NCBI GenBank assembly: GCA_029780855.1
Contig: JAKOXV010000012.1
Location: 1 to 35,621, forward strand
Origin: a bacterium
GTDB taxonomy: Bacteria; Patescibacteriota; Saccharimonadia; Saccharimonadales; JAUPVS01
Direction of reading: 5' to 3'
Length of the DNA: 35,621 bases
This document shows positions 20,242 to 33,382 of this stretch, piece by piece; the stretch's first letter is position 1; the number at the start of each line of letters is the position of its first letter. The translations under genes were made by a program, and so were the position numbers. The notes beneath the pieces were generated by a model that saw nothing but the letters and a program-made list of their open reading frames with translations, was not told the DNA's origin and did not search any database.

Positions 20242-21864
20242 CTAAGCTCCTGAGGCGTAATCAGCCTTTACGATTTCTAATTCCTTGGCCATTAGGCGGG
20301 ATCGTGCAAAGAAGTACCCAACTACCGCCGTTAGAGCAAAGGCGATAAGCATGTTGGTTCCGGGACCGGTGTTTGGCAGGGCAGTAGCAACTTGCTCGGT
20401 TGTTTTAATGACTGTGGGAGGCAGTTTTATCGTCACCTTGTTTCCGTATACGTTTGTGAGGGTCATATCGTATGAACCGGGGTTGCTCGCTGATGCCGGC
20501 GTGTTCGGTATGGGGTTTTTGGTCTTTACGGTGAGGTGCTGGGTTAGCGTAGCCTTTGCATCAATATCTTTGGCCGGCCAACGAACTATATTGTTATCGT
20601 CTTTTTTACCGCCATGGTAATCAATCACGTCGGCGTATTCTAGTATGTCTCCGATACTTTCTTCTACCACGAATTTCTTTACCTTTTCTTTACCGGTATT
20701 CTTAACCGAAAGGTCATAGGTTATGGTGTCGCCAGCATTGGCCGTAGTGCCATCAGCTTTAGAGATGTTTTGCGTTTCGTTCTTGGCGGTCTTGCTTAGT
20801 ACCAGGCAAGCAGTGGTGTCGTTTTTGTCCTGTGATTCGGTGCAGGGCTTACATTCTGGGCTATCTGCAGGTAAGGCTGGATTGTACTCACATTTAGGTA
20901 TGACTGGCGGAGCGGTCTCCACGTATACATCCCGTACGCAATCACCGCTAGCATTGCCGCTGGCTTCTTTTGAAGAGCCGTCATATTTGACGATCAGTCG
21001 GAATTTGTAGTGACCCGGTTGGTCCACCTTGAAGGTTCTGAGTGTGCTGTCGGTGGCAGTAGAGTTTCCTGCACTCCCAAAAGGTACCCCCAGAGCCTTT
21101 TGTTGGCCGAGTACCCAGCCGTTTACGCCGTTGACGAATTCATAGTACATATCTACAAGTTCGCCGGGTGGTAAGTTTGTACCATTGGCTTGGCCGCGGA
21201 GGCCTATGACGCTGTTGAGGGGTACTTTGGAACCCGACGTAACGTTCATAATAAGGCTGGAACAAGCGATTGCCTTAACGGCTGGCGGAGGCGTTGGTGC
21301 AGCGTTGATATAAACCAAATTACCGCAAGAAAATAGCACCATGAAAACGCCTCGACTGCTTTGACCGACCACAGCCATACAGCCTTTGCCGTCGTTGTAG
21401 CAATGGGCGCCCCACGAGGTCATTGGTCGGGAGTAGATTGTGCCTACTCCACCGATGTAATGGGATTGTTCACCTGAAAATCCGTAAGGATAACGGCCAA
21501 CCGACCGCAGCTGGCCGCTATATTCCGAATAGTCCATGCGACGGACTGACCCGTTAGCAAGATCCTGACATGAGACGCCGAAGTAGTTTAGAACGGTTGC
21601 GTAGCCGTACGCATTGGTGTTACATCGTGATACTGCTTCGGCTTGGCTAGAGAATCCTCCGGGGATAATATCGTTTCCAGAAGCCGCCAGGCTAGGCTGA
21701 GGAGGAGCAACTACCGCAAAAACCTGTACGATAAGCGTTAGGGCCATGAATACAAAACCGAGCCGTCTAATCGAGCTTTCCTGGTGTAGGCGTTTGGCAT
21801 AAAACGCTACCTGATGGATAAGGCTAGGGTTGAAGGGTAGGTTTTTTAGCAGCCGATTTAACAT
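20242..21864 (-). CDS. secreted surface protein with DUF11-like domain and C-terminal LPNTG-TM-Arg anchor
   Basis: N-terminal hydrophobic segment, LSKTAKNETQNISKADGTTANAGDTITYDLSVKNTGKEKVKKFVVEE, C-terminal LPNTGPGTNMLIAFALTAVVGYFFARSR. Confidence 0.8.
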   Translation of the reverse strand: MLNRLLKNLPFNPSLIHQVAFYAKRLHQESSIRRLGFVFMALTLIVQVFAVVAPPQPSLAASGNDIIPGGFSSQAEAVSRCNTNAYGYATVLNYFGVSCQDLANGSVRRMDYSEYSGQLRSVGRYPYGFSGEQSHYIGGVGTIYSRPMTSWGAHCYNDGKGCMAVVGQSSRGVFMVLFSCGNLVYINAAPTPPPAVKAIACSSLIMNVTSGSKVPLNSVIGLRGQANGTNLPPGELVDMYYEFVNGVNGWVLGQQKALGVPFGSAGNSTATDSTLRTFKVDQPGHYKFRLIVKYDGSSKEASGNASGDCVRDVYVETAPPVIPKCEYNPALPADSPECKPCTESQDKNDTTACLVLSKTAKNETQNISKADGTTANAGDTITYDLSVKNTGKEKVKKFVVEESIGDILEYADVIDYHGGKKDDNNIVRWPAKDIDAKATLTQHLTVKTKNPIPNTPASASNPGSYDMTLTNVYGNKVTIKLPPTVIKTTEQVATALPNTGPGTNMLIAFALTAVVGYFFARSRLMAKELEIVKADYASGA

Positions 21865-26871: not shown

Positions 26872-28438
<1,567 letters not shown>

Positions 28439-28598
28439 CTAGGGAGATTTACCAAGCCGTGTAGCTCTATAGACTACATGAGCTATGGTCGATCCTCGGA
28501 CATCTGGGGTTTTGAAGCGTACCAGATATCCCATGAGGAAATAGCTTCTACCTTATATCGATTGACCGTTTGATTTGCACGAACCAGTTTTTTAACGA

Positions 28599-28635
28599 TA
28601 AAAGAGCCCATTTGCGAGAGGGCTCTTTTTAGTTT
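28599..28635. terminator. bidirectional terminator after 16S rRNA
   Basis: AAAAGAGCCC-atttgcgaga-GGGCTCTTTTT. Confidence 0.85.
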
Positions 28636-29126
28636 TAGGATGGATTATTGACGGTGCGTTGATAGAGAACTGCGTTATTTCGGATGCCCATTCTTTTAAA
28701 GCCCAGCTTCTCATAGTATGAACAGAGGCCGACATTTGTATCGGGGCAGTCCAGACGTACATATTTCCGACCATTTTCTCGTATTTGGTCGGCAGCCCAA
28801 CCTATAATTTTGGGTCCTAGCTGCTGACCCCTAAAATCACTGTGCACAATCAACCCATGTATATAGCCCGCCAAACCATCGTTCCCTTTGTCGCCCCACG
28901 CTGGTTTATCCTCCCATCGCAATACCACGCTGCCGGCGGGTATATCATTAACTTCAACCAGGTAACAACTACCACTCTCTACGCGTAGGGTTACCTCCTC
29001 AGGGGTATATGGTTCGTCGCCCCATGCGTTATCACCAAGTGAAAGCTTAAACTTTCTTGCGTCTTCTAAAAGAGATAGTAGAGTATCTGCGTCTGATTTT
29101 TTAACATGTCTAATTTGTAGTCCCAT
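28635..29126 (-). CDS. GNAT family N-acetyltransferase
   Basis: IHGLIVHSDFRGQQLGPKIIGWAADQIRENGRKYVRLDCPDTNVGLCSYYEKLGFKRMG. Confidence 0.88.
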   Translation of the reverse strand: MGLQIRHVKKSDADTLLSLLEDARKFKLSLGDNAWGDEPYTPEEVTLRVESGSCYLVEVNDIPAGSVVLRWEDKPAWGDKGNDGLAGYIHGLIVHSDFRGQQLGPKIIGWAADQIRENGRKYVRLDCPDTNVGLCSYYEKLGFKRMGIRNNAVLYQRTVNNPS

Positions 29127-29139
29127 ACTTCAAATATAA

Positions 29140-29163
29140 CAAAAAAACACCCGTGGGGGTGCT
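29140..29163 (-). terminator. terminator after tRNA-Ile
   Basis: Minus: GCACCCCCACGGGTGTTTTTTT. Confidence 0.7.
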
Positions 29164-29168
29164 TTTCT

Positions 29169-29245
29169 TGGTGGGCGATGAGGGACTCGAACCTCCGACC
29201 TCGTCATTATCAGTGACGCGCTCTAACCAGCTGAGCTAATCGCCC
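29169..29245 (-). tRNA. tRNA-Ile (GAT), CCA encoded
   Basis: GGGCGATTAGCTCAGCTGGTTAGAGC...CTGATAA...GGTTCGAGTCC...ATCGCCCACCA. Confidence 0.97.
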
Positions 29246-29252
29246 GTAATTT

Positions 29253-29329
29253 TGGTGGAGCAACGGGGACTCGAACCCCGGACCCCCTGCTTGCAAAGCA
29301 GGTGCTCTAGCCAACTGAGCTATTGCCCC
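29253..29329 (-). tRNA. tRNA-Ala (TGC), CCA encoded
   Basis: GGGGCAATAGCTCAGTTGGCTAGAGC...TTTGCAA...GGTTCGAGTCC...TTGCTCCACCA. Confidence 0.97.
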
Positions 29330-29358
29330 ATAAAAACTAGGCCAAAATTACTCGGGGT

Positions 29359-29387
29359 ATTCTACCGGAAACACTGGTGAATTACAA
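29359..29387 (-). promoter_or_regulatory. promoter of tRNA-Ala/tRNA-Ile
   Basis: Minus: TTGTAA - 17 nt - TAGAAT. Confidence 0.7.
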
Positions 29388-29430
29388 GAGTGGTGTATAC
29401 TGCAGATAGCTAAATTTACAGGAGTGAGAG

Positions 29431-29985
29431 ATGTTTCGAAGAGGTGAGCAACTTGAATCGCCAGTTGCATTGACCGATCAGGATACGGAATTGCTACATC
29501 AAGAGGTGTTGTTACGAATTGTAGTTGATGAGAACGGTGTGGAATATTTAGATGGGTTTCAGCTTCCTCCTGACAACGAAGAGGTATGGAATCCTCGAGT
29601 AATACGCGGTCAGGTGATGCGTGAAGAAACCGTTCGTGAACCGGAAACGGGGGCGCAAACGCAAGAATCTACTACAACCGATATATCGTTTGAGAGCCGC
29701 CTTACAAATAGCTTTGTGCGACACATTAACATCCGTTCAATTAGTCTCGGGCATCAACCGCTATTCATTACCTGGGAAGAAGCATCACAAGATGCTTCTC
29801 TGGCCAAAGAAGAAAGGGCAGAGCTTGAACGCTTGCGAACAAAGGAAGCCCGTGAACGCGTTGGGAGAGGTATGCGACTTGATGAAATGCTGGGTCCCGA
29901 TGAAGCAATGCGAGTTGCAAAAGAGCTTGGTTCACCACCGCAGTTCCAACGAACCAGGCGGCGCAACAGAACGCGTCTAGCTTAG
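29431..29985 (+). CDS. hypothetical protein
   Basis: 184 aa ORF preceded by AGGAGTGAGAG; no family recognised. Confidence 0.7.
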   Translation: MFRRGEQLESPVALTDQDTELLHQEVLLRIVVDENGVEYLDGFQLPPDNEEVWNPRVIRGQVMREETVREPETGAQTQESTTTDISFESRLTNSFVRHINIRSISLGHQPLFITWEEASQDASLAKEERAELERLRTKEARERVGRGMRLDEMLGPDEAMRVAKELGSPPQFQRTRRRNRTRLA

Positions 29986-32024
29986 GTTAACCGGCGACGC
30001 TGCAAAAATTCGTAGGCCTGATTTCCACCGAGTAGTAGTGAGCCGATAATGAATCCGGCAATCGGCAGAACCCAAGGGTTAGCTGGAGAGTTGCTTGTGT
30101 TAACAGGTGAACTCAGGCCACCTCCAGGTCCGCTGCTACTAGCTAGGATTGCACCGGCACCCTTTCGTGTAGTTTCTCCGTTTGTGCTGTCCTGTGCTGC
30201 TTGCTGGACGTCTGATGCGGTTATTGGTTTGCTGTATACGTAGTAAGTGATTCGTTTTGATGCGCTAACCTCAGGAGCAGTACTAAAGGAAAATACCGGT
30301 GCAGGAGCGGAACTGCTAGATTGTGCCTGTGCTAGCGGTAGGTTCCCGGCTTCAGTGTTAATGCCAAAGCTGCCCACCCAATTACCGAACACGTTTATGA
30401 AAAGAACGCCAAACCAGTCGCTAAAGCTCAAGTTGCTGTTAATGATATTCAAAAGATTCACACTGGCTGTTGCATTTCCCGTGCTGGCATTACCAGCGCT
30501 GGTATTATTACGAACACTCGCATCACCGGTCTGCGCAGCAACGTTAATGTTGTTGTTGATCTGGCTGTTGCTGGCGTTGTTCAGGTTGACATCACCGACA
30601 CCGGTCGTGGGTATGCCGTCATTGGTGGTTATTCCGCCCCCCAGTGCAGCGGCGGTCGCTCCCTGAGGAGCATCCATGATGACGCCTACCCAACGGCCGA
30701 GCACGTTCACAAACACCAGTAGGGAGTCCTTACCGATAACCTGACGTCCGGTCAGGTTAAGGATGGTCAGGTTAGTCAAAGAATCGCCAGTTGTAGCACT
30801 GCCTGCAGAAGTGTTGTGGTCAACGGTAGCCTGACCAGAGGTAGCGTTGGCGTTAACGTGGTTACTAATCGCCTGAGTATCGGTATTGGAGAGGTTGAGA
30901 CTGCTGCCACCAGTAGTACTCCCGCCGTTACTGGCTAATAATGCGTTCAGTACGTCCTGTGGCAGGAGAATGTCACCGTCTAGGTTACCGTAGATGTTAA
31001 TAACACCCATAAATGACTGGCCGCTACTGATCATCGAGTTGAGCATGTTGACGACATTAGCAACGGCATCTGCATTTCCTGTGGTAGCATTGCCACCGTT
31101 TGTATTGTTTTGAACGGTAGCGCTACCGCTCTGGGCAGCAAGGTCTATCGTGTTATCAATCAACCCATTAGCTTGATTGTTGATGGTTACGTCTCCGTTA
31201 GGATTGGGGTCGGATGGTGCTTGCTGCAGGACGCGCGGATCAATGTATAGGTCGCCGGTAACGTCGCCGGTGATATCACTGCTGAATGTCTGGAGGTTGC
31301 CGCCACCACTATTCCAATAGGATTGTAAAAGGTTTATCAGGTTAGCAATTGCTGCAGCATTACCGGTAGTTGAATCGCCGGCGTTAGTATTAGAGTCTAC
31401 AGTAGTATCGCCACTTACGGCCTTTGAGGTGATACGCGTGCTGATTGAAGCGTCGTAGAAATTGTCGAACACCCCTGTACTTTTGCTAGCAGTAGAGGAT
31501 TTGTTTTTGCTAGCAGGGACGCTATTTTGAATTATTGGATCCCCGGAGGTCGATGGATCTTCTGTGGCTGTTCCTAATCCGCTGAGCTTTGCGCCTGTTG
31601 TGGTTGTAGGTCCAGTCTTACTGATAGTACCGGTTGTTCCCTGAGTGCCGGTCGGGCTAGTTGGACCGGTTGGGCCAGTGGGTCCTTGGCTGGTAGTTTT
31701 GGGGTTGGGAACGTATGTACCAGTTGATTGATCATAGGCATATGCCTTGGTGTCCCACATTCCCGTATCTGGATTGTAGCTGTAATCTTGCTTTTGGAGT
31801 GGGGTAGTCTGGCCAGTGTTCGGATCCCAGCTGTACGTTCCATTCTCCCAGAGTCCCGTAGCTTCGTTGTAATGGTACGTTGAGTCGGGAGCCGAATTAG
31901 CAGAAGAAGTGCTGGTGTTAGTGGTTGCTGTTTGAGCGTGGACGGCGCCTTGCGAGAGAGCCACTATTGAAATTGTAATGATAAGCATCGTAAGACTGGC
32001 TGGTATAGACTGATTTTTTCTCAT
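29982..32024 (-). CDS. large secreted repeat protein with C-terminal TM anchor
   Basis: Signal peptide, YxYnPxTGxW repeats, GPT-rich linker, four ~110 aa repeats each carrying an NTxAGxAxTG motif, C-terminal TM + RRR; strong SD GGAGGGAG. Confidence 0.85.
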   Translation of the reverse strand: MRKNQSIPASLTMLIITISIVALSQGAVHAQTATTNTSTSSANSAPDSTYHYNEATGLWENGTYSWDPNTGQTTPLQKQDYSYNPDTGMWDTKAYAYDQSTGTYVPNPKTTSQGPTGPTGPTSPTGTQGTTGTISKTGPTTTTGAKLSGLGTATEDPSTSGDPIIQNSVPASKNKSSTASKSTGVFDNFYDASISTRITSKAVSGDTTVDSNTNAGDSTTGNAAAIANLINLLQSYWNSGGGNLQTFSSDITGDVTGDLYIDPRVLQQAPSDPNPNGDVTINNQANGLIDNTIDLAAQSGSATVQNNTNGGNATTGNADAVANVVNMLNSMISSGQSFMGVINIYGNLDGDILLPQDVLNALLASNGGSTTGGSSLNLSNTDTQAISNHVNANATSGQATVDHNTSAGSATTGDSLTNLTILNLTGRQVIGKDSLLVFVNVLGRWVGVIMDAPQGATAAALGGGITTNDGIPTTGVGDVNLNNASNSQINNNINVAAQTGDASVRNNTSAGNASTGNATASVNLLNIINSNLSFSDWFGVLFINVFGNWVGSFGINTEAGNLPLAQAQSSSSAPAPVFSFSTAPEVSASKRITYYVYSKPITASDVQQAAQDSTNGETTRKGAGAILASSSGPGGGLSSPVNTSNSPANPWVLPIAGFIIGSLLLGGNQAYEFLQRRRLT

Positions 32025-32030
32025 ACACAC

Positions 32031-32097
32031 TCCCTCCGTAGGATTATTTGTGGATAACGAGTTGGGGAAAAGGAGGGAATGGGCGGACAGACCCTCC
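32031..32097 (-). promoter_or_regulatory. candidate RNA switch: GGAGGG / CCCTCC / GGAGGG(RBS) leader
   Basis: Minus strand segments at 32097-32092, 32080-32072 and 32037-32031 can pair in two mutually exclusive ways. Confidence 0.45.
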
Positions 32098-32134
32098 GAT
32101 GTACTACCCCTAAGGAACTAATGCAGTATAGGTG

Positions 32135-32722
32135 CTAGTTCGTAACGTTAAGTGTTACTTGTGACGTGTTGACGTTCTGGGCGTCACCACTGGCAGCGCC
32201 GCCTGCAGTCGTGTTATTCGTAACGACAGCTGAACCGGTAGTAGCTGTTTGGTCTGAGGTATTACAAACTTGTAGGTTGGTATTATTACGAATATTGGTA
32301 ACGTCTGAGTTACGAGTCACTACGGCATTGTAAGAGCTTGGGCCGGTGGTGCTGATTGTAGCGCTGTTGGCAGAATTGTTGGCAGCAGAGTTATTTCCAG
32401 CAGTTGCAGCAACGGAGTTATTGACGCTAGCAGCTACGGACGTCAGGTTGTCGTTGTAGGACATACCAGTTGTTGCCGAACCAGCAGTCGTGTTGTTGGC
32501 TACCGTAACGTTACCGCTATGAGCCGCCTGTGAAGAATCGTTATTCACACGGGCAGTGGTGTTATTGTGTACATTTCGACGGGTCATGTTATGGAACGTT
32601 GCACGGTTGGTAGAGTTAGGACCAGTAGTATTGATACTACCGCTCTCGGCTGCAGCCAAACCGCCTGTCAATCCCATGACCATGACGATCGCTGATGTTA
32701 GTTGAATTATTCTTTTTCGCAT
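32135..32722 (-). CDS. secreted repeat protein sharing the NNTTAGxAxTG motif
   Basis: Signal peptide MRKRIIQLTSAIVMVMGLTGGLAAAES; SGNVTVANNTTAGSATTG and TGSAVVTNNTTAGGAASG. Confidence 0.85.
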   Translation of the reverse strand: MRKRIIQLTSAIVMVMGLTGGLAAAESGSINTTGPNSTNRATFHNMTRRNVHNNTTARVNNDSSQAAHSGNVTVANNTTAGSATTGMSYNDNLTSVAASVNNSVAATAGNNSAANNSANSATISTTGPSSYNAVVTRNSDVTNIRNNTNLQVCNTSDQTATTGSAVVTNNTTAGGAASGDAQNVNTSQVTLNVTN

Positions 32723-32811
32723 AAGACCCTCCCTTCGGATTGCTTGCTTAATATCAGTACCTGTTAGTTGTCCGACCCCACAAAGTAGTCCGCCCTACTA
32801 TATGAAGCCAG

Positions 32812-32955
32812 TTAGCCAACGGTACTATGAGAAATAAAAACATCCCCGAGTAGCCTGGGGATTTTGAAGATTGGAATAGCTCGAAGAAGGGAGACTGCAT
32901 GTGCAACTACCGGAATATCAGAATTTAATGCATACTCAAAAATAACCTGTTGCAT
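32812..32955 (-). CDS. possible small ORF (47 aa) in the leader of the repeat-protein gene
   Basis: GGGAGGGG RBS before ATG; but a terminator-like hairpin lies inside its 3' end. Confidence 0.3.
   Translation of the reverse strand: MQQVIFEYALNSDIPVVAHAVSLLRAIPIFKIPRLLGDVFISHSTVG
32836..32866 (-). terminator. terminator-like hairpin upstream of the repeat-protein gene
   Basis: Minus: AATCCCCAGGCTACTCGGGGATGTTTTTATTT. Confidence 0.55.
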
Positions 32956-33105
32956 AGGCCCCTCCCTTCTTGACCAAACACGCAGCTCAGTCGAATGAAA
33001 GTGTAAGCACAAAAAGCATTAGCGTCTGCAATATATTTCACAATATTTCTAGCAAATTGAACTTTACAGAGGTGGGGGTGTAGCAATTTTCGCATCAACA
33101 TAGGG

Positions 33106-33134
33106 TTGACTACCTCTGTTTTGGGTGCTAAAAT
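33106..33134 (+). promoter_or_regulatory. promoter of 23S rRNA
   Basis: TTGACT - 17 nt - TAAAAT, ~250 nt upstream of 23S; leader contains TGCTTGAG/CTCAAGCA arms and a boxA-like ACTTAACAATT. Confidence 0.7.
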
Positions 33135-33382
33135 GGTCAGGCTGCTTGAGTTTAGGCACGAGGAATCGCGCGATAAACCGCCAAGCTTCTAGCGTAAGCT
33201 CAAGCAAACAGCAATATCCGAAGGGTTTTTTGTGGGATTGCTTAGAGTTTTGAAACTTAACAATTGAATGTAAAGAAGAGAGATGTATAGATTATGTAAT
33301 ATGGACATAATCGAATGCAGAACAAACGGCATTAGTTATTGGTACCCACCAATAACTAGTCAAATGTACGAAATATCGTAAA

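Follow-up and report, generated by a model that had tools for sequence, protein, structure and literature searches.

Two adjacent genes in the window (the whole 35,621-nt stretch of Patescibacteria DNA analyzed here) encode a small protein, S, and a large protein, L, that share a repeat and are kept together as a gene pair among relatives. The repeat family has no database name and appears to be undescribed. We give about an even chance to the reading that S is the secreted subunit, and L the membrane-anchored base, of a Patescibacteria surface assembly, either a fiber or a coat. The observed basis for this reading is the homology of the repeats, the layout of signals and anchor, the order of the genes, the linkage to sortases in relatives, and the beta modules of L. 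Counting against an assembly are the poor model of S, the lack of a significant Foldseek match, the absence of a sortase and of the accessory gene X (described below) from the window cluster, and the occurrence of the cluster in only ∼12% of the class.

The S and L genes share a repeat

The two genes are adjacent and run in the same direction, and each is preceded by a Shine-Dalgarno-like sequence. As listed, the open reading frame (ORF) of L covers 29982 to 32030 on the minus strand (682 amino acids [aa]); the ATG at 32024, behind GGAGGGA, is the more likely start. A previous sequence-only reading of this DNA had described two neighboring ORFs with a shared repeat; both are where it placed them, and all six of the peptides that it quoted were found. 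The features of the two genes are as follows.

32135..32722, minus strand: S, small repeat protein, 195 aa, predicted to be secreted, anchorless, C-terminal VTN
32417..32641, minus strand: S repeat unit 1 (60 bits with the unit profile)
32138..32365, minus strand: S repeat unit 2 (70 bits with the unit profile)
29982..32024, minus strand: L, the large repeat protein (680 aa if begun at the ATG at 32024; a GTG at 32030 could also serve as the start)
31932..32024, minus strand: L predicted signal peptide, approximately aa 1 to 31 (read from the sequence; hydrophobic N-terminal stretch in 56 of 56 homologues)
31680..31892, minus strand: L N-terminal beta domain, rich in Tyr and Trp (YxYNxxTGxWxN), with a weak likeness to DUF3836 (pLDDT 84 to 93)
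31221..31472, minus strand: L repeat module 1 (AlphaFold model and unit profile)
30936..31187, minus strand: L repeat module 2, strand INIYGNLDGDI (AlphaFold model and unit profile)
30657..30896, minus strand: L repeat module 3, strand FVNVLGRWVG (AlphaFold model and unit profile)
30339..30587, minus strand: L repeat module 4, strand WFGVLFINVFGNWVGSFG (AlphaFold model and unit profile)
29988..30071, minus strand: L predicted C-terminal transmembrane helix and short basic tail (model helix 652 to 679; hydrophobicity in homologues)

A profile of the repeat unit, built from homologues with the window sequences left out, detected exactly six units in L and S, with scores from 21 to 70 bits. Four are in L (residues 165 to 225, 277 to 321, 374 to 415, and 477 to 522; 21 to 28 bits each), and two are in S (residues 28 to 102 and 120 to 195). 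Because the best of 1,000 composition-preserving shuffles scored 9.9 bits with this profile, the repeat is not a chance product of low complexity. Whole-protein profiles of L and S match each other (70 and 44 bits), and reversed and shuffled sequences scored below 0 with them. A unit of ∼110 aa had been proposed for L; the four units stand, and their spacing is 95 to 103 aa.

No family match was found when S and L of the window were compared with Pfam, NCBIfam, and PDB profiles, in agreement with the earlier suggestion that the repeat looks novel. Among the homologues of S and L, Pfam and NCBIfam gave only isolated hits to single members that were mutually inconsistent; these few hits look compositional. 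The curlin family did not appear in the Pfam scans of either protein, and S had no PDB profile match.

S consists of a signal-peptide-like stretch followed by the two repeat units and stops at VTN. Its repeat of ∼75 aa, which has an ISTTGPxSxN head, is longer than the core common to S and L. Residues Q65, Q158, G70, G86, G163, and G179 are invariant in an alignment of 45 S sequences, and the Asn positions of the repeat are nearly so. In L, a low-complexity stalk lies between the four modules and the C-terminal hydrophobic helix. Such a C-terminal hydrophobic segment is present in 53 of the 56 L homologues versus none of the 55 S homologues, which bears out the division into anchor and subunit that had been proposed from the window alone. 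A 184-aa ORF without a family match (29431 to 29985, plus strand) abuts the 3′ end of L.

Predicted structures

The AlphaFold2 model of L (53 sequences) has a mean pLDDT of 67.5, rising to 90 to 97 in the cores of the four modules. Each module has one strand of ∼19 residues plus others, and the C terminus is helical. The model of S (AlphaFold, 45 sequences) is poor, with a pLDDT of 48.8. When L was compared with the PDB and with viral models by Foldseek, nothing was found at an E value of ≤0.001. The sequence-only reading had suggested a beta-solenoid or fiber; the beta-rich modules that AlphaFold places in L agree with it in part, but a solenoid or fiber is not established by an unreliable S model and a Foldseek search without a significant match.

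DUF3836 structures were the top Foldseek matches for the N-terminal domain of L (E = 0.61), and the sequence signals were likewise weak: the PDB profile gave an E value of 0.013, and the Pfam score was 12.8 bits (E = 0.11) against a gathering threshold of 25. We take this as a lead and not as membership in the family.

Distribution and pairing of S and L

The window contig comes from an 872-kb genome (G000), the class relatives of which are mostly recorded as “Candidatus Saccharibacteria.” Among the 295 genomes of the class Saccharibacteria, 36 (from 29 of 129 genera) carry L; because this is only ∼12% of the class genomes, an epibiotic lifestyle does not in itself require the cluster. By profile, 37 of the 381 Patescibacteria genomes sampled have L, a few of these being weak repeat-only matches. 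In 35 of the 36 class genomes, S is the gene immediately upstream of L, with gaps of 12 to 160 bp (the exception is L046/L088). The same order holds for 55 of the 56 named Saccharibacterial loci that are untruncated, a set that overlaps strongly with the 36 genomes. S-type genes were present in 35 of the 36 L-bearing genomes versus 9 of the 259 others (P = 7 × 10^−36 by Fisher's test); the S profile also matches L, and the 35 were counted from gene order. The pair is kept among relatives, and neither of the outcomes that the sequence-only reading had named as fatal to its proposal (a well-characterized Pfam repeat, or predicted disorder without co-occurrence of the two genes elsewhere) was observed.

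The window genome also has a stand-alone S-like paralogue of ∼390 to 420 aa on contig C17 (L004, 4968 to 6239, plus strand). Some genomes without L contain open frames of 353 to 422 aa that match the S profile.

Gene X and the sortases

Ahead of S, 46 of the 56 untruncated named Saccharibacterial loci have one more gene, X. Its product combines a hydrophobic segment at the N terminus with a VNGQxxxVPxNGS motif and a Ser-rich tail, and 4 of 22 members weakly match Glucodextran_B. A search of the window genome gave no accepted X (best E = 0.018).

In the Microgenomates loci (L129 to L146), an S′ of ∼355 to 460 aa precedes an L′ of ∼630 to 780 aa, and the next genes are commonly those for a repeat protein, which has an LPxTG-like C terminus, and a sortase. 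Sortases are present at 13 of 18 Microgenomates loci and at 15 of 56 Saccharibacterial loci. All 15 of the latter adjoin a one-repeat S-like protein with an LPxT-like or degenerate C-terminal signal. Three Microgenomates sortases belong to PF04203 (E = 3 × 10^−26 to 7 × 10^−22), as do the eight Saccharibacterial locus sortases covered by the Pfam check. At L073, a GT2-type glycosyltransferase adjoins the sortase. Of the two sortases in the window genome, neither adjoins the S-L cluster or any repeat protein; the final 60 residues of L contain no convincing LPxTG-type motif, and S has no hydrophobic tail.

A leader RNA upstream of S

Two noncoding segments of the window are relevant here.

32756..32826, minus strand: window S leader, structured, with a long hairpin and an architecture like that of the relatives' leader (z = −4.05)
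32025..32134, minus strand: S-L intergenic gap, unstructured in the window (z = +0.5; mean z of homologues, −2.5)

The gaps of relatives are more structured than their dinucleotide shuffles (mean z = −2.4 for 41 X-S gaps and −2.5 for 50 S-L gaps). Upstream of S, 31 aligned sequences share a helix, P0 (GUGGUC with GAACAC, one mismatch), around a variable helix, P1. In this alignment 86.4% of the cells are paired, versus 70.4% after shuffling and ≤45% after sliding, and the covariation is 0.507 versus 0.232 for shuffled alignments, a value that no shuffle reached. Searched against 1.1 Mb, the covariance model recovered the 31 seeds and five nonseed loci (L078, L102, L109, L110, and L123; E = 6 × 10^−6 to 8 × 10^−4), each directly upstream of S; the only other matches to an E value of 0.01 were reverse-strand echoes of the same sites. 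Because the structure was derived from the 31-sequence alignment, the five nonseed loci are the more independent support. An additional crossing helix, P2 (CGGG/CCCG), seen by reading the sequences and in an ad hoc scan, may form a pseudoknot.

The conserved covarying leader is found upstream of S in the range L072 to L126. A different, GC-rich GGGCC hairpin occupies the main-group leader position upstream of S in L105, L112, L115, L116, and L120. The leader is not a known riboswitch by Rfam, which gave no match at the gathering threshold or up to an E value of 1. In the window, the best score with the leader model was 5.5 bits, which is no match; the window hairpin upstream of S is perhaps a diverged form of the leader RNA. 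The idea that an intrinsic terminator in the S-L gap raises S over L was not supported, with candidates in 6 of 52 gaps versus an average of 2.7, and at most 6, after shuffling.

Genomic setting

The S-L pair lies between the 16S and 23S rRNA genes. This interval of the window (28438 to 33379) spans 4.9 kb and contains protein genes together with tRNA-Ile and tRNA-Ala in antisense orientation. The cluster has the same 16S-23S position in G057, G106, G140, and G275 and on contigs L074 and L114, in several other families; it is ∼3 to 6 kb upstream of the 16S gene in G002, G006, G010, G023, and G035 and is unlinked to the rRNA locus in several other genomes. This pattern suggests that an old position has been inherited vertically. 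This setting, gene X, the sortase-linked relatives, and the S leader RNA had no part in the sequence-only reading.

Contig C13 of the window genome (L157) carries a complete 23S and 5S, only 75 to 88% identical to the window 23S; this contig is probably misbinned. Elsewhere in the window (20242 to 21864, minus strand) a 540-aa protein matches DUF11 and, weakly, an isopeptide-forming fimbrial domain, and so is possibly another surface protein.

Possible roles of S and L

If S and L do form a surface assembly, both would be exported by Sec, and the C-terminal helix of L would keep this protein in the membrane, with its four beta modules on display. S, with two bare repeat units and no anchor, would associate with itself and with L through the N/T/G/A-rich repeat and would be the more abundant part. 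A dedicated sortase probably attaches a third repeat protein, one with an LPxTG-like signal, in relatives. The assembly would most likely mediate host-cell contact or shield the surface. More tentatively, S and L may belong to a self-assembling fiber system that serves host attachment in both Saccharibacteria and Microgenomates. Its subunits would be soluble, membrane anchored, or linked to a sortase, and in Saccharibacteria the soluble one would be under its own structured leader RNA.

It is also conceivable, if doubtful, that no polymer forms. In this view L is a membrane-anchored adhesin, with modules that bind a ligand on the host, and the secreted S shares its fold and acts as a competitor, a cap, or a soluble receptor. 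Among L homologues the core is conserved and the N-terminal domain is variable, as would suit an adhesin, and the aromatic YNxxTGxW motif, present in 33 of 56, could bind glycans; however, the strict pairing of S with L and the recurrence of the repeat in sortase-linked one-unit proteins suggest homotypic association over ligand binding alone. We consider it unlikely that S and L make up a scaffold resembling a wall or an S-layer, with the role of stiffening or shielding the envelope and no relation to host contact. One repeat with three modes of anchoring (transmembrane L, sorting-signal protein, and soluble S) and the glycosyltransferase at L073 would fit such a scaffold, but occurrence in 36 of 295 genomes is unusually patchy for one. 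Very improbable is the view that the repeats are disordered low-complexity tails, alike only through convergent N/T/G/A composition: the biased composition and the low-confidence S model fit it, but the shuffle and reversal scores, the invariant Gln and Gly positions, and the confident beta modules, which already contradict it for L, do not.

Comparison with known systems

The attachment of ultrasmall epibionts to their hosts is poorly understood beyond type IV pili, which are a surface structure for host binding in Saccharibacteria (PMC12206443). S and L differ from these pili in having no Pfam or NCBIfam pilin match, in their architecture, and in being sporadic and not near universal. X, S, L, the sorting-signal repeat protein, and the sortase make up a defined, conserved, and testable gene set, and the regulation of the S-L cluster could be approached through the covarying leader RNA found in relatives.

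Sortases are reported to be enriched in the CPR as fam000526 (PMC6744442). The sortases of relatives lie beside proteins with C-terminal LPxTG-like signals, as in Gram-positive sortase-anchored proteins and pili. Unlike those systems, S and L have no clear sorting signal or pilin domain, and the sortases of the window genome are away from the cluster. The hints of DUF3836 (Bacteroides; PDB 4r03 and 4r8o) in the N-terminal Tyr/Trp domain of L are weak and concordant, all below significance, and limited to ∼70 residues of L.

The functional amyloid FapC/FapB of Pseudomonas (9nqd; PMC12392863) also has secreted imperfect repeats with conserved Asn, Gln, and Gly; in FapC, stacked repeats are held by conserved Asn and Gln (PMC12392863). 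In that system, as with S and L, there is more than one repeat protein, and each monomer has a few repeats, which build a beta fold in Fap and are predicted to do so in L. Unlike Fap, the S-L pair has a different repeat and a transmembrane-anchored partner; S has no PDB profile match, the Foldseek search of L gave no significant match (FapC, 9nqd, was at noise level, with an E value of 0.61 and a probability of 0.01), and no Fap accessory genes were recognized among the few S-L neighbors scanned. The likeness of S and L to FapC is best regarded as an analogy of design and not as homology.
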